Source of the DNA: Marivita hallyeonensis
Lineage (GTDB): Bacteria > Pseudomonadota > Alphaproteobacteria > Rhodobacterales > Rhodobacteraceae
DNA length: 64,000 nucleotides
Reading direction: 5' to 3'
NCBI RefSeq assembly: GCF_900129875.1
Contig: NZ_FQXC01000003.1
Span: 372,001 to 436,000, forward strand
Shown here: positions 34,655 to 50,733 of the stretch, piece after piece
Layout of the letters: the number at the start of each line of letters is the position of its first letter
How positions within the stretch are numbered: position 1 is the first letter of the stretch
Program-made: the position numbers and the translations under genes
The notes under the pieces: generated by a model
Told to the model about the DNA's origin: nothing
The model's input: only the letters and a program-made list of their open reading frames with translations
The model's database searches: none

Positions 34655-35038
34655 CTAGACGTCCTTCGCCTCGGGCATGTTCTCGGGTGGGTCGTCGTAG
34701 ACGGACCAGCCGTAGGTGGTGGCGCTGTCTGGGAGGTCTTCTCCGTTCACGTTCCGCGCGAGGTAGGCCTTGGCGATGAAGTTCGCGGTGATTGGCGCGG
34801 TCAGGAACAGGAAGAGGGTGATCAGCAGCTCGTGGATCGAGAGGTGGCCGGTCTTGGCGTAGAAGTAGATCATCGAGGCGATGAGGACGCCACCGACGCC
34901 CAGCGTCGTCGCTTTGGTGGGCGCGTGGAGGCGCTGGAGGCTGTCCTTGAGTTTGATGAGACCATAGGAGCCGACAAAGCCGAAGATGCCGCTGATCACG
35001 AGGAAGACCGAGATGAGGAGTTCTGCTACGAAGTTCAT
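34655..35038 (-). CDS. mnhG: Monovalent cation/H+ antiporter subunit G (MnhG/PhaG)
   Basis: A 127-residue protein with three membrane segments (about 6-27, 45-62, 66-90) and the family core IGLIKLKDSLQRLHAPTKATTLGVGG-type region (SYGLIKLKDSLQRLHA). It is the last subunit of the multicomponent Mrp (Pha/Mnh) Na+ or K+/proton antiporter, needed for assembly. It follows mnhF by 10 bases in a leftward operon. The soluble C-terminal tail (YGWSVYDDPPENMPEAKDV) is a common Rhodobacteraceae feature. Confidence 0.9.
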   Translation of the reverse strand: MNFVAELLISVFLVISGIFGFVGSYGLIKLKDSLQRLHAPTKATTLGVGGVLIASMIYFYAKTGHLSIHELLITLFLFLTAPITANFIAKAYLARNVNGEDLPDSATTYGWSVYDDPPENMPEAKDV

Positions 35039-35048
35039 GCTGTGCCCC

Positions 35049-35318
35049 TCACTCGATTATGTCGCCGCGCAAGAGGAAGCGGCAATAGGCAACGGTTGAG
35101 ACGAAGCCGACCATGGCGACGAGCATCGCAGCTTCGAAATAGATCGCGGTGCCGCGCCAGACGCCGTAGAGCACCAGAAGCGCGATAACGTTGATGACCA
35201 TTGTGTCGAGCGCAAGAATGCGGTCGGCGGCGTTGGGGCCGACGGCAATGCGCCAGAGGTCCATCAGAAGCGCTACGCCATAGCAGATGGCGGCGAAGAA
35301 CAGGGCGTATTCGATCAT
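35049..35318 (-). CDS. mnhF: Monovalent cation/H+ antiporter subunit F (MnhF/PhaF)
   Basis: An 89-residue protein with three membrane helices; the core is WRIAVGPNAADRILALDTM followed by VINVIALLVLYG, the standard MnhF signature. The start at 35318 is chosen because it gives the family N-terminus (MIEYALFF) and overlaps the mnhE stop by 4 bases; the open frame continues far upstream as antisense-like low-complexity residues. Confidence 0.9.
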   Translation of the reverse strand: MIEYALFFAAICYGVALLMDLWRIAVGPNAADRILALDTMVINVIALLVLYGVWRGTAIYFEAAMLVAMVGFVSTVAYCRFLLRGDIIE

Positions 35319-35806
35319 GGGAAGATCTCCATCAGGCGCCGTTCGTAGCGGGACTTGATCTCGTCGCGCACGGCGTCGGGATCGTCGGTATGCAGGCAAT
35401 GGACCAGGATCGAGTTGCAGTCGGCGGCCAACATCGCCGAGACTGTGCCGGGGGTCATGGTGATGGTGCCCGCCAGCACGGTGATCGCCTCGGCCGATTT
35501 CAGCTCGATCTCGATCGGAATCCAGTGGGTTTTGATGTCTTCGTCTTTCTTGAAGAGGATGATCATCGCCACCTGCACATTGGCGACGATGATGTCCCAG
35601 AGCACGATCAGCCCGTATTCGATGATCTTGAGCGGACGGCTGATGCGGGGACGGTTCGGCCAGTAGGGGGCAGTGACCATCGGGATGACGAGGCCAAGGG
35701 CCGCGCCGAGGATCAGGTTGCCCAGAGTCACCGTGTTCACCAATCCGATCCATACGAGGACGAGTGTCAGGCTGAGAAACGGGTGCGGGATCAGTGTGCG
35801 GAGCAT
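35315..35806 (-). CDS. mnhE: Monovalent cation/H+ antiporter subunit E (MnhE/PhaE)
   Basis: A 163-residue protein with N-terminal membrane helices and a soluble C-terminal half with AITVLAGTITMTPGTVSAML and HCLHTDDPDAV, characteristic of MnhE. It overlaps mnhF by 4 bases and follows mnhD by 3, so the subunits are translationally coupled. Confidence 0.9.
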   Translation of the reverse strand: MLRTLIPHPFLSLTLVLVWIGLVNTVTLGNLILGAALGLVIPMVTAPYWPNRPRISRPLKIIEYGLIVLWDIIVANVQVAMIILFKKDEDIKTHWIPIEIELKSAEAITVLAGTITMTPGTVSAMLAADCNSILVHCLHTDDPDAVRDEIKSRYERRLMEIFP

Positions 35807-35809
35807 GGC

Positions 35810-37345
35810 TTATCCCTCTTCCGGCTGTTCCAGAACGGCAGCGACATAGCCGTCCCGATCAAAGAGTTGGGCGGATGTGTCTTCCAGATAGGCCGAGACC
35901 GGTCCGGCAAAGGCCGCCAGAGCCGCCAGAACGGCCAAAGCAAGCATGCTGGGGGCGACCTGTAGCGCGGTGGCGTGGTTGGGCGGGGCAACGTCCTCCA
36001 GCCCGCTATTGTCAGCCTCCGGGGTCATGGCAGTCGATTTCCAGAAGAGCGTGCTGCCCGCGCGGGCGAAGCCGAGGATGGTGAGGAGCGACCCGATCAG
36101 GATCGCGCTCCAGGCCCAGCCCATCACGCCGGGTTCGCGCATTGCGTCGAGGACCAACAGTTTGCCAAGAAAACCGCTGAGCGGGGGCATCCCGGCCATG
36201 GCGATGGCCGCAGCGAAGAAGAGAGCGGCGAAGAGGCCGTTCTGCACTGTCGCCGGTTCCGGGATCAGTCGATCCGCGCTGCGGCGGCTGACCACGAGAT
36301 CTGCGATCAGGAAAAGGCAGGCGGCGGCGAAGGTGGAGTGGACCATGTAGTACAACGCAGCAGAGGTGGCCGTGGGCGAGAACGCCGCGACCGCGACAAG
36401 CAGCGTGCCCATGGAGCCGACGACCGAAAAGCCGATGAGCGGCATCAGGCGGCGCGCGCCGAGGACGCCGATGGCACCGATGGCAATGGTCACGATGGCC
36501 GCCGGGAAAAGCCACGTGCCCGCCAGCCCTTCTGTACCCGGTATGCCGGGGCCGAAGGCGGTCGTGTGGACACGGAGAATCGCGTAAGCGCCGACCTTGG
36601 TCATGATCGCGAAGAGCGCCGCAACCGGAGCGGGCGCGTTGGCATAGGTTGCGGGCAACCAGAATTGCACCGGGAAAAGTGCCGCTTTTACGGCGAAGAC
36701 GATCATCAGAAGGATCGCCGCAACGCGCACGAGCGCGGCTTCTTCTGGGGGGATCTGCGGGATGCGCTCGGCCAGATCGGCGATGTTGAGCGTGCCGGTC
36801 GAAGCGTAGAGCGTGCCGAGCGCAAAGAGGAACAGGGTGGAGCCTGCGAGGTTCATCACCACATATTGCAGCCCTGCGCGCATGCGGTCCTTGCCACCCG
36901 AGTGGATCATCAGCCCGTAGGACGCGATAAGCAGCACTTCGAAGAACACGAAAAGGTTGAAAACGTCACCGGTCAGGAAAGCGCCGCAGATGCCCATCAG
37001 CTGAAACTGGAAGAGCGCGTGGAAATGACGGCCCCGATTGTCCCATCCTGTGGCGATGGCGTGGATCAGCACGATCAGCGCCAGCACCGTGGTCAGAAGC
37101 ACCATAAGCGCCGACAGCCGGTCGAGGACCAGCACGATCCCGAAGGGCGCAGGCCAGTTGCCAAGCTTGTAGAGGAAGGTCTCTCCGCCTGAGGCCATCA
37201 CGGCGAGACCGATGGAGATGCCCACCAGCAGGATGGTCGTGGCCACGGAGGCCGACCGCGCCAGCGTGATGTCCCAACGCATGACGAATCCGATCAACGG
37301 CGCGACCATCGCGGGCAAGACAACGGGCAGGATGATCCAATGCAT
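35810..37345 (-). CDS. mnhD: Monovalent cation/H+ antiporter subunit D (MnhD/PhaD)
   Basis: A 511-residue NuoN/M-like proton-translocating subunit with about 14 membrane segments. Seen are GDVFNLFVFFEVLLIASYGLM (the conserved membrane Glu), the lysine in FAVKAALFPVQFWLPATYANAP, and the PLSGFLGKLLVLDAM loop. It forms one of the two channel-like subunits of the Mrp antiporter. The ATG at 37345 (TGATG with the mnhC stop) is preferred over a GTG one codon upstream. Confidence 0.92.
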   Translation of the reverse strand: MHWIILPVVLPAMVAPLIGFVMRWDITLARSASVATTILLVGISIGLAVMASGGETFLYKLGNWPAPFGIVLVLDRLSALMVLLTTVLALIVLIHAIATGWDNRGRHFHALFQFQLMGICGAFLTGDVFNLFVFFEVLLIASYGLMIHSGGKDRMRAGLQYVVMNLAGSTLFLFALGTLYASTGTLNIADLAERIPQIPPEEAALVRVAAILLMIVFAVKAALFPVQFWLPATYANAPAPVAALFAIMTKVGAYAILRVHTTAFGPGIPGTEGLAGTWLFPAAIVTIAIGAIGVLGARRLMPLIGFSVVGSMGTLLVAVAAFSPTATSAALYYMVHSTFAAACLFLIADLVVSRRSADRLIPEPATVQNGLFAALFFAAAIAMAGMPPLSGFLGKLLVLDAMREPGVMGWAWSAILIGSLLTILGFARAGSTLFWKSTAMTPEADNSGLEDVAPPNHATALQVAPSMLALAVLAALAAFAGPVSAYLEDTSAQLFDRDGYVAAVLEQPEEG

Positions 37346-37698
37346 CACGGCTGGACCTCCTTGCTGTCGTCTTCTGCTTCGATATCGATCTTGTCGCTGT
37401 CGGCCTCAAGGAACGCGCCGAGGCCGATCATCACCAAGACGGCTGTCATGCCGAACGAGATCACGATGGCGGTGAGGACCAAAGCCTGGGGCAGAGGATC
37501 GGTATAGGTGGCCTCGCCATACTTCGACAGGATCGGCGACTGGTCGATGGCCAGACGTCCGCTGGCAAAGAGGAACACGTTCACCGCGTAGGACAGCAGC
37601 GCGAGACCCAGGATCACCGGGAACGTCCGGAGCCGCAGGATCAGGTAAACGCCCCCCGCCGTGAGGATGCCCACGGAGCTTGCAACGATGATCTCCAT
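37345..37698 (-). CDS. mnhC: Monovalent cation/H+ antiporter subunit C (MnhC/PhaC)
   Basis: A 117-residue NuoK-like subunit with three membrane helices: VASSVGILTAGGVYLIL, FPVILGLALLSYAVNVFLF and ALVLTAIVISFGMTAVLVMI, with the conserved DPLPQALVLTAIVI motif. The start at 37698 (MEIIVASS) gives the family N-terminus; ten extra residues upstream overlap the mnhAB gene. Acidic C-terminal tail. Confidence 0.92.
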   Translation of the reverse strand: MEIIVASSVGILTAGGVYLILRLRTFPVILGLALLSYAVNVFLFASGRLAIDQSPILSKYGEATYTDPLPQALVLTAIVISFGMTAVLVMIGLGAFLEADSDKIDIEAEDDSKEVQP

Positions 37699-37699
37699 A

Positions 37700-40561
37700 T
37701 CAGGTGCCTCCCTTCGCGTCTTCGACATGTTCGCCGGGGTCGTAATCCATCGCGGCCTCGTTCACCGTTTCCCCGGCCGAGCGCGCGATGCGGGACAGGC
37801 TGTAGAGCATCAGCATCACCGCGCCGAGAACCGTCAGGAACACGCCGAGGTCGAAGAGCATCGCGGTGGCAAGTTCGAACTCTTCGATGGGTGGCAGATG
37901 CACATAAGTGTAGGCACTTGTAAGGAACGGGCGTCCCGCCAGCCATGAGCCGACACCGGTTAGCGCCGCGATCACCACACCAAGGCCGATCATCGTGTGA
38001 TACTCGATCTTCTTGCGCTCCTGCGTCCAGGCGAACCCCGATGCCATATACTGCATCAAAAGCGCAATCGCGATCACGAGACCCGCCACAAAGCCGCCGC
38101 CGGGCTGGTTGTGACCGCGCAGGAAGATGTAGATGCCGACGACCACGGCGATCGGCATCAGAACGCGCGTCACCACCACCATCATCAGCGGGTGCCGGTC
38201 GCGGGACCGGTCCTGCGTGTAATCGGTGTTCTTCAACCGCCGTGCGGCTGGGCCATCGAGCAAGGCATGCATCAGCGCGTAGATCACGAGACCCGCGATG
38301 CCGAGCACGATGATCTCGCCGAAGGTGTCGTAGCCCCGGAAGTCCACAAGTATGACGTTCACCACGTTCGTCCCGCCGCCGCCTTCGTAGCTGTTGGCGA
38401 TGTGGTAGTCGGAGATCGTCTCGATGTCCCGCATCAGGAACGCGTAGGCCAGCGCGCCGACTCCGCCGCCTGCCGCAAGCGCAATGATCCCGTCACGGAA
38501 GCGCATGGCACCCGAGCTTTCAGCGGGTGTGACCTTAGGCAGGAAGTGCAGCGCCAGCAGCAGGAGCATGATCGTCACCGTCTCTACCGAGATCTGCGTC
38601 AGAGCAAGGTCGGGCGCAGAGAGATAGACAAACCCGGCTGAGATCGACAGACCGATGATGCCGATCAACACGAGCGCTCGGAACCGGTGGTGGTGCATAA
38701 CGACCACCGACACCGTTGCGACGACCAACATGACCCAACCGACTGCGATAACGATCGGGACGGGCAAAAGCTCCCGCGTCGGTGCGGAGAGGCCCGAGCC
38801 AGAATAGGCGATCCACCCAAGGGCGACAGAGGCGACGGTGAAGATCGCCAGATAGCGCGAAATCGCTCCGTTGTGGGTGGCATCAGTGATCCGGCGCATC
38901 AAGGCGACGACGCTCATGATCAGCGCGTCGAAGATCGCCTTCGCCTCGGGACGGGGCGTTGCGATCCACGCCTTGTCCAGTGGACGGTGCAGCAGCAGCA
39001 GGACGAGACCGCCGAGAACGGCGATGATCGACATCCACAGGGCAGGGGTTACGCCGTGCCAGATCTTGAGATGCGGGTCGAGCTCTGCGCCCGTTACAGC
39101 ACTTGCCGCCGCCCGGACGATCCCGTCCGCAAGAAACGGCGCAACGCCAATCACGATGACCAATGTGCAAAGTAGGGCGGGGGCGAGCCACATGCCCGCG
39201 GGCGGGTCATGCGGGTTCGACGGGTAGTCGTCGCGCACCGGGCCCAGGAACACGTGAGAAATGAAGCGGAAGGAGTAGGCGACCGATAAGAGCGCCCCGA
39301 ACGTCGCCAGCACCGGCACCACATAGTAGCTGTCGAGCCATTTGGTGTGAGAGGCTTCCTCGAGCATCATCTCTTTCGACAGGAACCCGTTGAACAGGGG
39401 GATGCCCGCCATGGACAGCGCCGCCACCGTCCCAATGAGGAAGGTGATCGGCATCAGGTGCCTGAGGCCGCCAAGGCGCTTGATGTCACGGGTATGCGCT
39501 TCGTGATCGATGATCCCGGCGGTCATGAAGAGTGCGGCCTTGAAGGTCAGGTGGTTGATGATGTGAAACACCGCCGCCACCGCCGCCGCCTGCGTGCCGA
39601 AGCCCAGAAGCATGGTCAGGAGGCCCAGATGGCTGACGGTCGAAAACGCCAGAAGCGCTTTCAGATCGTCCTTGAAGAGCGCGATCAGAGCGCCCATCAC
39701 CATTGTGATGAGACCCGTGGTCGCCACGATGTAGAACCACGCATCCGTGCCGGCGAGCGCGGGCCACATGCGTGCCATCAGGAACACACCCGCCTTCACC
39801 ATCGTGGCCGAATGCAGGTAGGCCGAAACCGGCGTCGGCGCCGCCATCGCGTGCGGCAGCCAGAAATGGAACGGGAACTGCGCGGATTTGGTGAACACAC
39901 CCAACAGGATCAGGATGAGCGCGGGCAGGTACCACTCGGATGCCTTGATCTGATCGCCCGCCTGCAGAATGTCCGTCAGGTTGTAGCTGCCCACGATATT
40001 GCCGAGGATCAGCATCCCCGCGATCATCGCAAGGCCGCCAGCACCCGTGACCGTCAGCGCCATCTTCGCGCCTTGACGCCCCTCGGGCAGGTGCTTCCAG
40101 TAGCCGATCAACAGGAAGGACGACAGCGACGTCAGCTCCCAGAAAATCAGTAAAAGCAGGATGTTGTCCGACAGCACGATCCCCAGCATCGCGCCCTGGA
40201 ACAAGAGCAAATAAGTATAGAACTGCCCCATCGGATCATCGCCCGACAGGTAGAACCGCGCATAGAGGATTATCAGCAGGCCGACGCCCGTGATCATGCA
40301 AGCGAAGAGCAGTCCCAGCCCATCGAGGAAGAACGATGCCGACAATCCCAGTTGCGGCATCCATTGAAGCTCTGCCTGGATGACTTCCCCCCGCATCACA
40401 TCGGGCGCGAGGATCAGCAGCATGATCAGGGCCAAAGCGGTCGGCACCGCCGTGAACCACGCGCACGCCGTCCGCCCCGCCCGGATCATGACGCCCGGCA
40501 CTAGCGCGCCAACAAATGGCAAGAGCGCAATGATGATCAGCAGCGTGCCTTCGTGGCTCAT
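37700..40561 (-). CDS. mnhA: Fused monovalent cation/H+ antiporter subunits A and B (MnhAB/PhaA)
   Basis: A 953-residue membrane protein in which the NuoL-like MnhA part (about 1-790) continues into the MnhB domain (about 800-940). MnhA landmarks are FWELTSLSSFLLIGYW with its Glu, GVFTKSAQFPFHFWLPHAMAAPTPVSAYLHSATMV-type residues near 225-250 and IPLFNGFLSKEMMLEE. The MnhB part shows RGHNQPGGGFVAGL and LMQYMASG. The A-B fusion marks the group-2 (Pha-like) Mrp type, a Na+/K+ antiporter for pH and salt homeostasis. First gene of the leftward operon mnhAB-C-D-E-F-G. Confidence 0.92.
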   Translation of the reverse strand: MSHEGTLLIIIALLPFVGALVPGVMIRAGRTACAWFTAVPTALALIMLLILAPDVMRGEVIQAELQWMPQLGLSASFFLDGLGLLFACMITGVGLLIILYARFYLSGDDPMGQFYTYLLLFQGAMLGIVLSDNILLLLIFWELTSLSSFLLIGYWKHLPEGRQGAKMALTVTGAGGLAMIAGMLILGNIVGSYNLTDILQAGDQIKASEWYLPALILILLGVFTKSAQFPFHFWLPHAMAAPTPVSAYLHSATMVKAGVFLMARMWPALAGTDAWFYIVATTGLITMVMGALIALFKDDLKALLAFSTVSHLGLLTMLLGFGTQAAAVAAVFHIINHLTFKAALFMTAGIIDHEAHTRDIKRLGGLRHLMPITFLIGTVAALSMAGIPLFNGFLSKEMMLEEASHTKWLDSYYVVPVLATFGALLSVAYSFRFISHVFLGPVRDDYPSNPHDPPAGMWLAPALLCTLVIVIGVAPFLADGIVRAAASAVTGAELDPHLKIWHGVTPALWMSIIAVLGGLVLLLLHRPLDKAWIATPRPEAKAIFDALIMSVVALMRRITDATHNGAISRYLAIFTVASVALGWIAYSGSGLSAPTRELLPVPIVIAVGWVMLVVATVSVVVMHHHRFRALVLIGIIGLSISAGFVYLSAPDLALTQISVETVTIMLLLLALHFLPKVTPAESSGAMRFRDGIIALAAGGGVGALAYAFLMRDIETISDYHIANSYEGGGGTNVVNVILVDFRGYDTFGEIIVLGIAGLVIYALMHALLDGPAARRLKNTDYTQDRSRDRHPLMMVVVTRVLMPIAVVVGIYIFLRGHNQPGGGFVAGLVIAIALLMQYMASGFAWTQERKKIEYHTMIGLGVVIAALTGVGSWLAGRPFLTSAYTYVHLPPIEEFELATAMLFDLGVFLTVLGAVMLMLYSLSRIARSAGETVNEAAMDYDPGEHVEDAKGGT

Positions 40562-40778
40562 GTCCCCGCCCTATGTGAACTCTGGCTCCGACATTGGATA
40601 ACGACCAGTGCGGGCGGTGTAAAACGGTGCTTTGCGGATCCGTGTACGGTAGTTTGACGCGCCTTGGCATGCGACCCGCGACCGGTGACTACACTTTCAC
40701 CCAGCGGAGAGCGGTGGCGTGCGGCGCCGATGCAAGCCCGTTTATGATGACGTGTCGCGTTACCCCGTGGGCACGGGC

Positions 40779-40862
40779 TCACACCATAAACGGATCGTCC
40801 AGCACGCCGACGAGCGGCATGAGGAACTCTCCGGTGTCGGGATCGATTTCCGCGTTCAGTTC
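40779..40862 (-). pseudogene. 3' remnant of a DUF4214-type secreted protein gene
   Basis: The last 24-28 residues of a short leftward frame, EIDPDTGEFLMPLVGVLDDPFMV, align (allowing substitutions) with the C-terminus of the intact gene ending at 49192, NPFDGEFLLQVIGILDSPFMT, including the GEFL core and the terminal DxPFM. The upstream part of the frame has no resemblance to the rest of that protein and no start with a ribosome binding site. I read it as the surviving 3' end of a deleted paralogue. A small intact gene of 85 codons cannot be excluded. Confidence 0.5.
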
Positions 40863-41113
40863 GTCTGGCGCGTGTTTCACATCACGCTCGCGGGAAGTGC
40901 AGGTTGGTTCTCGGCAAGTAGACTTCAGGGCCGACGATTGCGTCGCCATCCTCCTTAGCCAGAGGTACTTTTTTTCGCACGCCCCGGCGTTGCGCGGCAC
41001 ACTGCAAGTATGAACGCGATTTCCTGCCAGTTTCATCTTGAAAGCATTGCGTCAACAATGAGGGCTCAGGGTACTGCGTCCTGTGAGTGCTTAGCGCAGT
41101 GATGTCGGAAAGG

Positions 41114-41136
41114 AAGGTGACTGAGTTTGTCACCTT
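41114..41136. promoter_or_regulatory. Inverted repeat AAGGTGAC-N7-GTCACCTT
   Basis: A perfect 8-base-arm palindrome with a 7-base spacer in the AT-richer leader of the exopolysaccharide genes. Related GGTCAC and GTGACC half-sites recur nearby (about 41164 and 41251). Likely a regulator-binding site or stem-loop; the partner is unknown. Confidence 0.4.
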
Positions 41137-41522
41137 GTCCGAAACGGATGAGCGTTCTTACAGGTCACGCGGTGTGATTTGGTGACTTCAGAGATCAGTG
41201 GATTAGCATCGAGCAACTTTAGCGTAATCGACGCTCACGGGTATTCGATGTGACCTGATTACACCGCTCTGATTTAACAGACAATTTAGACCATGAAGAC
41301 CCTTACGGGTCGTTGTCGCGTCGGCTTCCTTGCGATCATGCGGTTAGCGAAGAAAGGGACAATCGCCTCATCTTGGCGGGATTCCACCTTTTTCTTTCGG
41401 TGAGGACATTGAGACCGCACGCAATTTTTGGTTGATCATTAACCATTTCTTACAACATTATGGCGCATATTGTTCTGTTTAGGCGGGTAAGCACTAATGT
41501 CATTCAGAACAGGGTTCGGGAG

Positions 41523-42152
41523 ATGGACGCGCAGACTCCAACCGAGGTGCAGAAGCGCCGGGCTCCAACAGGATTTGAGACAGGAAAACGCGTTTTCGAC
41601 ATCGTCGTCGCGGTTCTTTTGATGCCAGCACTTTTGCTTTCAGCCGCTGTGCTCACTATCCTCAATCCGTTCTTCAATCCCGGACAGCTGTTTTATCGGC
41701 AAGACCGTATGGGCCGTCATTGTGAGCCTTTCACAGCGTTGAAATTCCGTTCGATGTCGCAGCACGGCGACGGGTTAAGGGGTGCCAGCGATCCAGTTGA
41801 GCACCATCGTATTACCGGGCTTGGTCAGTTCATCAGATGCTCCCGGATCGATGAGGTGCCGCAGATCATCAATGTGCTGAAAGGCGAAATGAGCCTGATT
41901 GGGCCGCGTCCGGACTATCTTCCACACGCGCGTCAATTCATAATGACGGTTCCTGGATATCACGCGCGTCATTCGGTTCGACCCGGGATCAGCGGATTGG
42001 CACAAACCGAGGTGGGATACGTGCAGGGTCCGCTTGAGACCCGCCAAAAAGTCAGCGCGGACCTCTATTATATACGAAACACGTGCTTCATTCTGGAAGC
42101 TTGGCTCGTCTGGCGCACTCTGTGCACGATGTTTGGCTTAAAAGGCCTTTGA
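41523..42152 (+). CDS. Undecaprenyl-phosphate sugar phosphotransferase (ExoY/WcaJ-like)
   Basis: A 209-residue membrane enzyme of the bacterial sugar transferase family, which transfers a hexose-1-phosphate to undecaprenyl phosphate as the first step of exopolysaccharide repeat assembly. One N-terminal membrane segment (FDIVVAVLLMPALLLSAAVLTI) precedes the conserved LKFRSM, DEVPQIINVLKGEMSLIGPRP and PGISGLAQ motifs. The frame is open to an ATG at 41460 without a ribosome binding site; the ATG at 41523 has AGGG at suitable spacing. It appears intact, although the gene after it is damaged. Confidence 0.85.
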   Translation: MDAQTPTEVQKRRAPTGFETGKRVFDIVVAVLLMPALLLSAAVLTILNPFFNPGQLFYRQDRMGRHCEPFTALKFRSMSQHGDGLRGASDPVEHHRITGLGQFIRCSRIDEVPQIINVLKGEMSLIGPRPDYLPHARQFIMTVPGYHARHSVRPGISGLAQTEVGYVQGPLETRQKVSADLYYIRNTCFILEAWLVWRTLCTMFGLKGL

Positions 42153-42288
42153 CACTCGCTTCGCTTGCGGCAAAGCCTGAATTCTGAAAAGCAACCCGCT
42201 TAGAATAGCTGTAGGTGTTCGCGAGTTCATTCACGATTGTACCGGTTAGGATAACCGGGATCAGGGGATCCCTGCTAATTAAAATGAG

Positions 42289-42354
42289 ATTGACCTGCTA
42301 CAATTGTTTGGCACGCTCTGGCGTAGAAAATAGATCATCGCTCTTTGCGCAGCG
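42289..42354 (+). pseudogene. Detached 5' end of the Wzz/BY-kinase gene, interrupted by TAG
   Basis: Read in the frame of the gene that follows, this stretch gives IDLLQLFGTLWRRK, a TAG codon at 42331-42333, then IIALCAAVAVAIGGYYAY across 42355. LWRRK followed by a hydrophobic helix is the expected cytoplasmic N-terminus and first membrane segment of a Wzz-type protein, where a tryptophan commonly follows the basic cluster; TGG to TAG would account for the stop. There is also no ATG or GTG at the expected start (ATT at 42289). The 5' end is therefore broken or needs an unusual start plus suppression. Confidence 0.65.
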
Positions 42355-44220
42355 GTGGCTGTCGCGATTGGCGGATACTACGCATACCGAATTGCCATCC
42401 GCAAATTCTCGGCAACCACGACAATCGCCCTTCAGGTTCAGGGGTCGCAAATTGTCGATATTGAGAGTGTGGTCTCGGGCGTGTCTTCGGACTTCACCTC
42501 CCTCAACACCGAAATCGAGGTCATCAAGTCGCGAAAGCTCGGTGAACAATTGGTGCAGCGATTGAATCTTACGGCGGACCCGGACTTCAATCCGTATTTG
42601 GGCGAGCAGCCGGAGCCATTTTACCAGAGATACCTAACCGAGTGGTTCGGTATCGAACCTGAACCAATGGCTCCGCCAACAAACGCCGAAATGTTCGACG
42701 CAACCGTCGCAAACGCGATGAGCACGATCAGCGCCGCGCTTCAGAGAAACACTTACATCTTCACTGTGACCTCAAAGACTGTTGATCCACAGAAGTCCGT
42801 TCTTTTGGCCAATACTCTGGCCGACATATACATCGCGGATCAGATTGCAGTGAAGTTCGAGGCGACCGAGAACGCCGTTGCCTGGTTGTCTGATCGCGTC
42901 ACAGAGCTTGAAATCGAACTCAAGACAAAAGAGGACGAGATCAAGGAGCTCCGCGGTCGGTCAAATCTCATCAGCCCGGAAGCCTTGGAAGCGCTCAATC
43001 AGCAAGCGAACGATTTGCAGGATCGGCTTGACGATCTTCGATCCATTGCGGGCGGTGCCGAGGCGCGGCTTGCGGAATTGCGCGGACTTCAAGCGGACGG
43101 CGATCCGCAGGCAATGCGTTCCGCCTTTGCCGACCCGGTTTTGCAGAGGTTGTTTATCGACCTGCCCGCAGGTGGGTCACAGGCGCGAGATCTCTTCGGC
43201 AGTCGCTTCGCTTTGCTCGTCCAGCGAGAGGCGAATGACACCGAGCGCGCGGTTGCACAGGCGGTCTCGCTTGAGCGATCCTATGCCGAACTCCAATCCG
43301 ATATCGCCGAGAAGACGCAGGATCTTGTCGCGCTGCAGCAGTTGGAACGCGAGGCTGAGGCGACGCGTGTGTTGTACGATACGTTTTTAGCGCGCCTGAA
43401 GGAAACGACCGTGCAAAGAGGATTGCAGGAAGCCGACGCCCGTGTCTTGTCGCCTGCGATCAACGGATACTACGTCGAGCCACGAAAGACGCGAATCCTG
43501 GCGCTCTCTCTCATCTTGGGAAGCATGCTTGGTATCGGCATCGTTCTGCTTCAGCAATTCCTGCACAACGGGTTCCGCACGGCAGAAGACCTTGAGCGCC
43601 ACACCGGCATCAACGTGATGGGGCAACTGCCCAAGATGCCGATTTCGCGGCGCAATCAGCTCGTTGATTACCTTCAACGGAAACCGACATCGGTGGCGTC
43701 GGAGGCTATACGAAACTTACGCACATCGGTCGTTTTGTCGAACATCGACAATCCGCCGAAGGTCATCATGTCGACCTCGTCCATTCCGGGCGAAGGCAAG
43801 ACAACGCAAGCGATTGCATTGGCGCATAACTTCGTTGGGTTGGGGAAAAAGGTCCTTCTCATAGAAGGAGACATCCGCAGACGCGCCTTTGGTCAGTACT
43901 TCATCAACGTACCCGAAGGCGGCGTCGTTTCGGCGTTGTCGGGTGAAAAGCCTCTCGATGAAATTGTCTTCCACGACCCCACTCTCGGCGCTGACGTTTG
44001 GATGGGTCTGATGGCACGCCGTGACGTGCATGGCTTCGTTGGCGCGTCACCGGAACTGAATGCGGGCGACACAATCCGCATACTGTCAGGCCCGTTCGCC
44101 GATACCGTGGCAAAAATCGAGACACTGCAGGAAGGCGAGCGGCTTCGGATCCTAATGGACCTGATGGGTCAATCGGTGCGTATGTCCGTCGCGTCGAACC
44201 GTGTTGAGAAACTGAAATAA
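42355..44220 (+). CDS. Truncated Wzz/BY-kinase fused to NusG/RfaH-like C-terminal domain
   Basis: The largest open frame starts at a GTG and gives 621 residues. It has a Wzz periplasmic region with a coiled coil (AWLSDRVTELEIELKTKEDEI area), the second membrane helix (LALSLILGSMLGIGIVLLQQF, about 382-402) and the start of a BY-kinase: Walker A IPGEGKTT (near 477) and A' VLLIEGDIRRR (near 505). After GADVWMG (residues 545-551) the sequence switches to LMARRDVHGFVG and then a KOW-type domain (AGDTIRILSGPFAD, LMDLMGQSVRMSV, VEKL) typical of NusG/RfaH-like antiterminators. Walker B and the tyrosine cluster of the kinase are missing, so kinase function is unlikely. The GTG start is only a fallback because a TAG lies upstream in the true 5' end. 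Confidence 0.7.
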   Translation: MAVAIGGYYAYRIAIRKFSATTTIALQVQGSQIVDIESVVSGVSSDFTSLNTEIEVIKSRKLGEQLVQRLNLTADPDFNPYLGEQPEPFYQRYLTEWFGIEPEPMAPPTNAEMFDATVANAMSTISAALQRNTYIFTVTSKTVDPQKSVLLANTLADIYIADQIAVKFEATENAVAWLSDRVTELEIELKTKEDEIKELRGRSNLISPEALEALNQQANDLQDRLDDLRSIAGGAEARLAELRGLQADGDPQAMRSAFADPVLQRLFIDLPAGGSQARDLFGSRFALLVQREANDTERAVAQAVSLERSYAELQSDIAEKTQDLVALQQLEREAEATRVLYDTFLARLKETTVQRGLQEADARVLSPAINGYYVEPRKTRILALSLILGSMLGIGIVLLQQFLHNGFRTAEDLERHTGINVMGQLPKMPISRRNQLVDYLQRKPTSVASEAIRNLRTSVVLSNIDNPPKVIMSTSSIPGEGKTTQAIALAHNFVGLGKKVLLIEGDIRRRAFGQYFINVPEGGVVSALSGEKPLDEIVFHDPTLGADVWMGLMARRDVHGFVGASPELNAGDTIRILSGPFADTVAKIETLQEGERLRILMDLMGQSVRMSVASNRVEKLK

Positions 44221-44399
44221 ACTCTCGCAACAAGCCAATAGTGAAAAAAGGCCATGCGGGAGATGGCTTTCCGGCTCTAAACGGGATGCCGCTTATAACC
44301 CGTCAGCTCCTCAAGCGGAACTGTCGCGGAACTCATTTTGCGGAGACTTGATCGGGGAATTCCGAACTCTGGCAAAATAGTCCATTCCGCAAAGAAGAA

Positions 44400-44421
44400 C
44401 CGGGCCACTTTAGTGGCCCGG
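44400..44421 (-). terminator. Intrinsic terminator of katG
   Basis: A perfect 9-pair stem CCGGGCCAC / GTGGCCCGG with loop TTTA (TAAA when read leftward), 24 bases after the katG stop; leftward it is followed by TTCTTCTTTGC. Good intrinsic terminator for the leftward gene. Confidence 0.8.
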
Positions 44422-44445
44422 CGAAGTAAGTGATGTCTATCAAGC

Positions 44446-46725
<2,280 letters not shown>

Positions 46726-47637
46726 ATGATTGGTGTGACCCTCAAACAGCTTCACTACTTCGATGCGCTGGCACGCCATCAGCATTTTGGGCGCGCGGCA
46801 GAGGCGTGCGCCATCTCCCAACCTGCCTTGTCGTTGCAGATCAAGGAACTGGAGACACTGTTCGGCGCACTGCTTGTCGAACGTGGCACACGGAAGCTTC
46901 GCCTGACACCGCTCGGCGAGGACGTTTTGCGGAAGGCGCGCGAAGTTCTTGTGTCGGTGGAAGAGCTTGAAGACCTGATGCGAGCGGCACAAGGTCCGCT
47001 GGCTGGGCGGTTCCGGCTCGGCGTGATTCCCACGGTCGCCCCTTACCTCTTGCCCGATACGATTGCGGCGCTGTCGTCGCGCTTCCCGGAGATCGAGCTC
47101 GAGCTGCGCGAATCCATCACGCAGTCGCTCGTCGAGGACTTGCGCGATTCACGGCTGGACGCGGCCATCGTTGCGCTGCCGATTTCCGAACCGTCTTTGC
47201 GCGAATTCTCGCTGTTCAACGAAGATTTTGTTCTGGTGCGTCCCGCCAAGGACGCGGACAAGCCTGTGCCGGGTCCTGCCGACCTGCGCATGATGCGCCT
47301 TCTGTTGCTTGAAGAAGGCCACTGCTTTCGCGATCAGGCGCTGTCGTTCTGCGAGATGCGCCAAGCACAACCGCGACAACTCATGGAAGGCAGCTCTCTG
47401 TCTACACTTGTCCAGATGGTCGGCGCGGGTATGGGTGTGACGCTGATCCCGGAAATGGCCATGAATGTCGAAACGCGCTCTGCCGACGTCTCAATCGCCC
47501 GCTTCCCACCACCCCGCCCGTCCCGCACCATCGGCATGGTTTGGCGCAAGTCCAATCCTCTTGCGGACCAGCTGATGCAGGTCGGCGCGATTGTCCGGGG
47601 TGTGGGTCAACGCGATACGCAGAACCGAGCAAGTTGA
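46726..47637 (+). CDS. oxyR: Hydrogen peroxide-sensing LysR regulator OxyR
   Basis: A 303-residue LysR-family protein. The HTH lies at about 6-60 (LKQLHYFDALARHQHFGRAA, SQPALSLQIKELE). Two cysteines in GHCFRDQALSFCEM (Cys200 and Cys209) have the same spacing as the redox pair Cys199/Cys208 of E. coli OxyR, and the position next to katG supports the call. It should activate katG after disulfide formation. No ribosome binding site is obvious before the ATG, which may mean low or leaderless translation. Confidence 0.92.
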   Translation: MIGVTLKQLHYFDALARHQHFGRAAEACAISQPALSLQIKELETLFGALLVERGTRKLRLTPLGEDVLRKAREVLVSVEELEDLMRAAQGPLAGRFRLGVIPTVAPYLLPDTIAALSSRFPEIELELRESITQSLVEDLRDSRLDAAIVALPISEPSLREFSLFNEDFVLVRPAKDADKPVPGPADLRMMRLLLLEEGHCFRDQALSFCEMRQAQPRQLMEGSSLSTLVQMVGAGMGVTLIPEMAMNVETRSADVSIARFPPPRPSRTIGMVWRKSNPLADQLMQVGAIVRGVGQRDTQNRAS

Positions 47638-48211
47638 CTGTTTCATCGTTCGTTGAGTGGTAAGCGATCAGACCAAAGAATTTCGGGACCATAATGTGCT
47701 CCCAACAGTCACTGTGGGCGCATTGATTCACTGCTTCGGGCTGATTTGCTAAAAAACCGGAGGGTCCGGCCGACGCCGAAACCCTCCGTCCCCGCGCTCC
47801 CAAGTCACCACGCGCGTCAACTGAATATGGTTTCGGTCATCCTGACCTGCTCTGATGGGATAGCGCTTTGGGACGATTCTAACAAACGATAAGCTCTGAC
47901 ATTTTGAGTCGATTGCGGTTTGTCGGGGTGTTCGCCACACGTTTTCTAGGACAGGTGTGTTCGCGAGCGGAAGGTGCACATCCGCCCAACCCAGTCTAAC
48001 TCCGCTCGGCTGGCATCGTCTTTGAAAATTGAACGTTTCGGTCTCGAAGATAGCTTTGGTCTTTGGAGCTCTCGATGCTCAGCGAAGACTGCATTCCCTG
48101 ATCACCCAGACCGATTGTGAAAACTTCGGCTGCGAGATTCCGCTGTGTCTGTCGAAACGCAAAAGACGCCCCACGTGAGGGCGCCTTCGCAAATTGAACC
48201 GAATTGTGGCT
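47638..48211. other. Intergenic region with an orphan leftward terminator
   Basis: About 570 bases. There is no gene with recognisable domains; a 76-codon leftward frame (47749-47979) ends inside a strong terminator and is probably not translated. The right end carries the downstream region of the DUF2853 gene, including a possible hairpin GGCGCCC-type near 48165-48190. Confidence 0.45.
47751..47788 (-). terminator. Orphan intrinsic terminator, possible end of a small RNA
   Basis: Read leftward: CGGAGGGT, inner stem CGGC/GCCG, then ACCCTCCG and GG followed by TTTTTT. This two-tier hairpin plus six T residues is a strong rho-independent terminator, but the nearest leftward gene (stop at 48212) is more than 400 bases upstream of it, so it may end a separate small RNA. 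Confidence 0.6.
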
Positions 48212-49191: not shown

Positions 49192-50733
49192 TCAGGTCAT
49201 GAACGGTGAATCGAGAATGCCGATGACCTGAAGTAGGAACTCTCCGTCAAACGGGTTCTGCGCACTCTGGAAGAAATCATCGACGGCATCGACAGCCGCG
49301 TTGAGCCCCGCTTGGCTTCCATCGAAAAGCTCCATCACGGCTTGGGCGTTTTCCACGTTCGACATGCCACGGTGAACTGCAAAGTACGCGCCAAGATCGA
49401 CCTTGTCGTTTAGATACTCTTGGTCTTCGAGTTGCTGCATGACGAAGTCGAGACCGTGCTCGATCTTCAATGGCGCTTTTGCGCCCTTCAACACTTCGAG
49501 GATGAATTGATCGCGCGATACCGCGCCGCTGTCGAGCGCCTCAACCCAGAACGCAATGCCAGACGCGTCTGGCGTTCGGCCCAGCACATTGTCGTATACC
49601 GACGTCGCAAAATCGAACGCGCTGATGCTGTCTGGGTAGGTGTCGCGCGTCTCGTCCTGATCGGTAAACAGTGCCGCCAGCTCTTTTAGGGTCGCGCCAT
49701 TTGCGTAGGCTGTGGCCCAGAAGTTGAGCCCGATGGAATCGGGGGCGCGATTGAAGTAGGCGATATACAACTCGATCAGTGCCTCGAGTGATGCACTATC
49801 CAGCGTCGCGGCACCGCTGAATTGCGACAGGTCGAAAGGTCCATCGAAAAGGTCGATTTCACTTCCGAAATCGATCAGCTCGACTCCATCCAGCGCGATG
49901 GTGCCGAGGCCAAAGAAATGATGGTCGGACACCGCGACCCCGTCAGGCCCTAGCACAACGGTGTAATGCGACTGCTCTCCATCGAAAAAAGCGATATCAG
50001 TGTCGTCGCGGCCGCTGATCCTCTTTAATCCTGCAGTGGCGGTGAGCGTGTCAGCCCCGGATGTGCCGATCAGGAATTGGTCGTTGTCGTCCGGATCAAT
50101 AATTATGACAGGTTCCGGGGCGGCTGGCATGGCGGCCGCTGGCTTGGGGTTGCTGGTCAGGGATTTTGATGTGCCCTGAAGATCGTAATAGAGGAACTGC
50201 ACGCTCAATTGCGCGTCAAGATCGGCATAGCTTACGGTATATTCCTGCGATGTGGCCCCGTCGATCGATTCGCCATCGCGCAACCATTGATACGAGATTG
50301 AATTGGTATTGATGCCGACTTCGTCGTTTACGCCGTTCGGGCGCGCCAGCAGTCGCTCGCCGATGACAGCGGTGCCAAGAACGACCAGAGGATTCAACGG
50401 CTCTACCCCGTCGGGAAGTGGTGTTCCGTCAGGCGGCACCGTCGGTTCGGGATCGCTTGTCACCACTTCGGTCGTGCCACCGAAATCCTCGTAAGTGTAG
50501 CGCACGCTGATCTGCGCGCCCTCGTCCGCCGGCGAAACGCGATAGGTCGTGGCGGTGGCACCCTCGATCACGTCACCGTCGCGCAGCCATTGAAAGGTCG
50601 CCGTGGCGTAGTTGATGCCGTCTTCGTCGCCCAGCGCGTTGGGGCGCGCGATAAGCGTTTGGCCAACGTAAGCGTCCCCGAGAATGGTGACAGGACCTTT
50701 CGGATGGTGGTTGGTCGTGTTCAGGAGGGTCAT
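49192..50733 (-). CDS. Large DUF4214 protein with Ig-like repeats
   Basis: A 513-residue acidic protein. Two tandem repeats of about 90 residues (roughly 13-100 and 110-200) share the pattern FQWLRDGDVIEGAT / YQWLRDGESIDGAT and end in a GT..(V/L)TS(D/N)P motif, resembling Ig-like or cadherin-like modules of secreted adhesins. A short GTSGADTLTA segment resembles an RTX-type nonapeptide start. DUF4214 follows (about 310-430: ELYIAYFNRAPDSIGLNFWA and VYDNVLGRTPDASGIAFW). No N-terminal signal peptide is visible, so type I secretion via a C-terminal signal is likely. Cell-surface role inferred. Confidence 0.8.
   Translation of the reverse strand: MTLLNTTNHHPKGPVTILGDAYVGQTLIARPNALGDEDGINYATATFQWLRDGDVIEGATATTYRVSPADEGAQISVRYTYEDFGGTTEVVTSDPEPTVPPDGTPLPDGVEPLNPLVVLGTAVIGERLLARPNGVNDEVGINTNSISYQWLRDGESIDGATSQEYTVSYADLDAQLSVQFLYYDLQGTSKSLTSNPKPAAAMPAAPEPVIIIDPDDNDQFLIGTSGADTLTATAGLKRISGRDDTDIAFFDGEQSHYTVVLGPDGVAVSDHHFFGLGTIALDGVELIDFGSEIDLFDGPFDLSQFSGAATLDSASLEALIELYIAYFNRAPDSIGLNFWATAYANGATLKELAALFTDQDETRDTYPDSISAFDFATSVYDNVLGRTPDASGIAFWVEALDSGAVSRDQFILEVLKGAKAPLKIEHGLDFVMQQLEDQEYLNDKVDLGAYFAVHRGMSNVENAQAVMELFDGSQAGLNAAVDAVDDFFQSAQNPFDGEFLLQVIGILDSPFMT

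Follow-up and report, generated by a model that had tools for sequence, protein, structure and literature searches.

Wzc/ExoP-type BY-kinases (polysaccharide biosynthesis tyrosine autokinases) have an intact start, a Wzz domain with the first membrane helix, a GNVR region, and a kinase domain with Walker A, A', and B motifs that ends in a C-terminal tyrosine cluster. NusG-family proteins are described in passages of a published account (PMC7593976) as binding RNA polymerase through an N-terminal NGN domain and as contacting Rho or ribosomal protein S10 through a KOW domain. A specialised NusG paralogue, annotated as 'transcription termination/antitermination NusG family protein', is found in the exopolysaccharide loci of Rhodobacterales. 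In Rhodobacterales loci L113–L116, L122–L127, and L034, no more than ~8 kb separates the specialised nusG from the Wzc-type kinase gene; their order and orientation vary. The pair on plasmid pTHAF40_a of Roseivivax sp. THAF40 has the same order, on one strand, as the locus described here, but consists of two separate intact genes 80 bp apart, with no fusion.

In the window (the whole 64,000-nucleotide stretch of Marivita hallyeonensis DNA that was analysed), parts of both genes occur in one open frame. Residues 1–551 of this frame resemble a Wzc/ExoP-type BY-kinase (Wzz part, GNVR, and Walker A/A'), but its N-terminus is broken, with the start lost and the first membrane helix apparently cut, and Walker B, the remainder of the kinase, and the tyrosine cluster are absent. 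Its tail resembles the linker and KOW domain of the specialised NusG paralogue, but has no N-terminal NGN domain. We consider it very likely that the frame is a recent chimeric pseudogene in which illegitimate recombination joined the front of a Wzc-type kinase gene to the end of a specialised nusG. The features of the segment are as follows (G003 and G007 are genomes of the same genus).

41460–42152, + strand: bacterial sugar transferase, open frame of 230 aa (PF02397, E 6.3e-49)
42202–42354, + strand: decayed kinase 5' end, in frame with the chimeric frame; stops TAG 42247, TAA 42280, and TAG 42331
42355–44220, + strand: chimeric frame, GTG start, 621 aa
42355–44007, + strand: Wzz/GNVR regions and front of the BY-kinase domain (profile matches, identity to the G003 and G007 kinases)
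44004–44007, + strand: junction, three bases common to both parents (GGT 44005–44007 against G003; GGG 44004–44006 against G007)
44008–44220, + strand: NusG-type linker and KOW domain (KOW, RfaH, and NusG C-terminal matches; 62–64% identity to the G003 and G007 NusG over 69 residues)

Domain content of the chimeric frame

The GNVR match (residues 327–401) is the sole Pfam match above its curated cut-off. The Wzz match lies below cut-off and starts at profile position 26 of 91, whereas the G007 kinase matches from position 1. The AAA_31 match (residues 470–512), also below the Pfam cut-off, covers profile positions 3–45 of 177, whereas that of the G007 kinase reaches position 137. The translation contains SSIPGEGKTT and LIEGDIRRR, which we take to be Walker A and Walker A', respectively; both are present in the intact G003 kinase and, slightly changed, in the G007 kinase. 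Walker B, the remaining kinase domain, and the C-terminal tyrosine cluster are missing. The tail of the frame (residues 567–619) corresponds to the C-terminal ends of the RfaH (108–158 of 159) and NusG (118–171 of 172) models from Pfam and NCBIfam. Searched alone, the tail gives a KOW match of 19.5 bits, under the Pfam cut-off of 22.3; the intact NusG of G003, at 20.6 bits, is also under it. The NGN domain (PF02357), present in the G003 NusG, is not among the profile matches of the frame.

The original prediction, drawn from the letters alone, had the BY-kinase sequence run through Walker A and A' and change after GADVWMG, near base 44007, into the linker and KOW domain of a NusG/RfaH-type protein, with loss of Walker B and the tyrosine cluster. 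The translation and profile matches confirm the first point and bear out the others: the stretch of kinase past GADVWMG is absent, and the proposed split at about residue 550 was right within a few bases. A 3' half unlike NusG is excluded by the KOW, RfaH, and NusG matches and by the identity to the NusG proteins of relatives.

Intact parents and the junction

In a protein search of 61 genomes, including that of the window, both genes were found whole and separate in G003 and G007. The full-length kinases of these two genomes (frames of 742, 763, and 746 aa) match the chimeric frame only up to residue 552–553, and their NusG proteins, encoded separately in frames of 185 and 183 aa, match it only from residue 542–543. 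Identity to the kinase part is 71.4% for the G003 kinase and 71.6% for the nearer of the G007 copies. For the KOW part it is 62% with the NusG of G003 and 64% with that of G007; these two NusG proteins share 70% identity with each other.

At the DNA level, local alignments place the end of kinase-side homology at 44007 (G003) or 44006 (G007) and the beginning of nusG-side homology at 44005 (G003) or 44004 (G007). A short shared word of this kind is a typical trace of illegitimate recombination, although three bases may also match by chance.

A sugar transferase gene lies directly upstream of the kinase gene in G003 and G007, the same arrangement as in the window, where the encoded protein is 62% identical to that of G003 and 60% identical to that of G007. 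The window copy looks undamaged and may still serve another locus, though not necessarily. The specialised nusG has a conserved, divergently oriented neighbor in G003, G007, G102, and G285, whose 161-amino acid product matches nothing in Pfam at E 0.01.

L034:16571–17056, − strand: 161-aa nusG neighbour, also at L033, L114, and L120

Missing halves of the parent genes

The genome is a draft of 4.19 Mb in 20 contigs, rated 99.99% complete. The last ~118 codons of the G007 kinase (residues 609–726) were unmatched in it except for weak hits at three places. By eye, two of these lie in another polysaccharide locus, distinct from this one, that has a 500-amino acid Wzz-like protein and a separate 351-amino acid ATPase, and the third is a ParA/ParB pair. 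From the G003 NusG, only residues 90–170 match at the relic, and the N-terminal half was not found in the genome. There was one further match, of 31% identity, beside a gene that reads by eye as ribosomal protein L1; we take this to be the presumed housekeeping NusG. Within window positions 40401–44500, tblastn with the kinase end, NusG, and the 161-amino acid neighbour returned the known parts and chance matches only.

Gene order in relatives and origin of the joint

The kinase gene is followed by nusG on one strand in four relatives: G397, pTHAF40_a, G102, and G178. In these, the positions equivalent to the two breaks are 748, 746, 3435, and 7920 bp apart, respectively, in alignment coordinates. 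A sugar transferase also precedes the kinase in G102 and G178. In a fifth relative, G181, nusG also follows the kinase on one strand, but that kinase is just 33% identical. None of these five co-oriented relatives is from the genus of the window. Other arrangements were also seen. The nusG gene is divergent from a sugar transferase–kinase pair in G003, Marinovum algicola pMaD9, and G105, convergent with the kinase in G150, and upstream of the kinase in Loktanella salsilacus (H8) and P. pseudonitzschiae; in G007, the two genes are on different contigs.

A single deletion in the co-oriented order, kinase then nusG, leads to the order in the window, whereas the divergent order of G003 requires an inversion rather than a plain deletion. 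We favor a deletion, without regarding it as proven. It had been proposed that a deletion removed the rest of an exopolysaccharide cluster and so fused the genes on either side. A rearrangement joining separate genes is well supported by the intact parents, the missing halves, the sharp joint, and the lack of a second case among the matches listed, and a deletion is its simplest form. That the rest of a cluster once lay between the two genes is not supported in that form, as only 746–748 bp, 3.4 kb, or 7.9 kb separates the breaks in co-oriented relatives and the genes are divergent in G003.

A less probable variant of the same explanation, though one that deserves some weight, is an inversion whose two breaks fell within the kinase gene and within a divergent nusG, followed by loss of the reciprocal joint. 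G003 belongs to the same genus, is among the closest relatives of both halves, and carries both genes on one contig in the divergent order (~2.3 kb from start to start), an order also seen in pMaD9 and G105; flipping the G003 stretch between the breaks would bring the sugar transferase, the kinase front, and the KOW part onto one strand. However, this route requires two events, neither missing half was found in the genome, and neither the reciprocal joint of NusG front and kinase end nor the 161-amino acid gene was found at 40401–44500.

By the preferred route, the genes for a Wzc-type kinase and a specialised NusG, which in relatives reside in exopolysaccharide loci, would have been joined at three shared bases by illegitimate recombination. 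The simplest course would be a deletion between co-oriented neighbors, with a probable size of 0.75–8 kb to judge from the relatives. That the joint is in frame is happenstance, and the kinase gene has additionally lost its start and acquired in-frame stops.

The site of the segment

The segment lies between two genes, both named by reading their translations:

37700–40561, − strand: MrpA-like antiporter gene, upstream of the segment
44446–46626, − strand: katG, downstream of the segment

The spacing between mrpA and katG is 0.2–2.2 kb in 12 of the 16 other genomes of the genus. In G013 the distance is 19.5 kb, in G006 and G008 the two genes are far from each other, and no katG match was obtained for G014. 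We compared the 12 intervals, that of G013, and the flanks in G006 with window positions 35001–48000 by blastn. Only the flanking genes matched, with no match to the sugar transferase, kinase, or nusG in the 12 intervals or in that of G013. This variable site either acquired the 3.9-kb segment in this lineage or lost it in the others; the segment, seen here only in the genome of the window, looks like the remnant of a larger locus. The GC content at third codon positions is lower in the genes of the segment (0.59–0.66) than in the flanking genes (0.80–0.82) but equal to that of the kinase and nusG genes that are whole in G003 and G007 (0.60–0.66).

The mrpA–katG interval (L098, L101–L112) varies within the genus, measuring 0.2 kb in G007, G015, and G011 and 0.7–2.2 kb in nine others. 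In three genomes inspected by eye, a frame of 431 or 450 amino acids that reads like a sensor kinase occurs in the intervals of G016 and G003, and G005 is without it. The genes in the G013 interval read, by eye, like a copper-resistance set. In the window itself, the non-coding gap between mrpA and the sugar transferase gene contains, at 40785–40880 on the − strand, a 32-residue in-frame likeness to the C-terminus of a DUF4214 protein encoded at 49192–50733 (41%, E 4e-5 when 898 bases were searched); this may be what is left of a related gene.

The broken 5' end of the kinase gene

Kinase homology extends in frame upstream of GTG 42355, where the translation reads NEIDLLQLFGTLWRRK, a stop, and IIALC. 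The translated match to G007 kinase residues 2–608 begins 51 codons 5' of the GTG and crosses two TAG codons and one TAA. In an alignment with five intact N-termini, TAA 42280 and TAG 42331 are located in or at the edge of a conserved stretch around EIDL...LWRxK, and TAG 42247 falls in the variable extreme N-terminus. GTG 42355 itself sits, by eye, within the first membrane helix. The kinase part is shortened at both ends, with the start lost and the first membrane helix apparently cut; the 5' break was a point missed in the original prediction. Because the start has been lost, stops have been acquired, and halves of both genes are missing, the relic can yield no full-length Wzc and no full-length copy of the specialised NusG.

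Distribution of the fusion

Sets of 17 genus, 394 family, and 385 class genomes were searched, each including the genome of the window. The sets overlap, and the larger two were sampled evenly from bigger groups. The query was the whole frame for the genus and a 165-amino acid stretch across the joint for the family and class, for which up to nine candidates per genome were scored (E ≤ 1e-8 for the class). Matches were obtained in 214 of the 394 family genomes, and those listed are the strongest, down to ~46 bits. Among the matches listed, the fusion was present end to end only in the genome of the window, that is, in 1 of the 17 genus genomes and in no other of the family and class genomes. 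The protein search of 61 genomes likewise showed the fusion in the genome of the window alone. A very diverged fusion could escape the family and class searches.

Several alignments continued beyond the joint. Those with G005 (C152), G306, and G269 ran well past it (frames of 711, 785, and 820 aa); all three proved to be ordinary kinases, each keeping a C-terminal part of its own and matching neither KOW nor NusG. Overruns of ~5–20 residues were seen, for example, with G181 and G170 in the family search and with G573 and G446 in the class search. The long kinase frame of G388 (at least 1098 aa) has an extension that, by eye, looks like non-coding read-through and not NusG. The kinase of a Loktanella MAG, the only locus to come from a contig scan, is 46% identical and matched to residue 555, without the KOW part.

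A search of plasmids matched 540 records, and among the 25 matches listed, no single annotated gene covers both parts. Records H2, H3, and H8 carry them as two annotated genes. P. pseudonitzschiae plasmids aligned to query residue 591, and one of these (H9) holds a 707-amino acid kinase and a separate nusG. After the genus, family, class, and plasmid searches, we reject a true conserved domain fusion. The architecture shared by several species, which had been named as the observation that would point to one, was found, among the matches listed, in this genome only. A literature search that looked for work uniting NusG, exopolysaccharide, and Rhodobacteraceae returned no such paper from the collection searched.

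Constraint and age

A FastTree phylogeny was calculated for 22 kinases at least 45% identical, with duplicates dropped by hand. The window kinase has a terminal branch of 0.157, shorter than the 0.189 and 0.247 of its two closest relatives, G003 and G007, respectively. Of 59 sites invariant in the 21 other kinases, one is changed in the window kinase; none of 17 invariant sites is changed in a 47-sequence set that includes some duplicate records of the same genome. The frame remains open over 1.86 kb, there is no excess of change at conserved kinase sites, and the nearest relatives are too diverged to date the loss. As far as its sequence indicates, the kinase gene was evidently under constraint until recently. 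The event looks recent because conserved sites have hardly decayed. Such conservation of the kinase part fits recent inactivation but also retained constraint.

Discussion

With the start, most of the kinase, and the NGN domain gone, the best reading of the frame is a recent non-functional chimera, and it very probably does not encode a working fusion protein.

The alternative raised in the original prediction, a working membrane-anchored module for antitermination or transcription-translation coupling, would place the Wzz part in the membrane and let the KOW domain recruit the ribosome or Rho. The frame is open across the joint, the residues of the KOW part and kinase front are well conserved, and passages of PMC7593976 contain the hypothesis that the KOW domain of RfaH may interact with membrane components. 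However, the start is lost, the first membrane helix is apparently cut, stops lie upstream, the domain that binds RNA polymerase according to those passages is missing, and the architecture is confined, among the matches listed, to one genome. We regard this alternative as very improbable.

An assembly misjoin of two real loci is an equally poor prospect. The genome is a draft in 20 contigs, but a misjoin should have left the kinase end and NusG front elsewhere, and neither was found despite the rated completeness. The joint is also well inside contig C13, at about base 416007 of a contig that extends to at least base 652855. Least probable of all is that the chimera is translated from GTG 42355 and has gained a function, in which a one-helix Wzz periplasmic bundle would be combined with a cytoplasmic KOW domain binding S10 or Rho at the membrane.

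Read as a recent chimeric pseudogene, the relic is itself ordinary, a further chimera of the deletion type from an exopolysaccharide locus that varies. It calls for caution in automated annotation, where the 621 open codons might be entered as a kinase or a fusion protein, and it serves as a pointer to the recurrent neighborhood of Wzc-type kinase and specialised NusG in the exopolysaccharide loci of Rhodobacterales.
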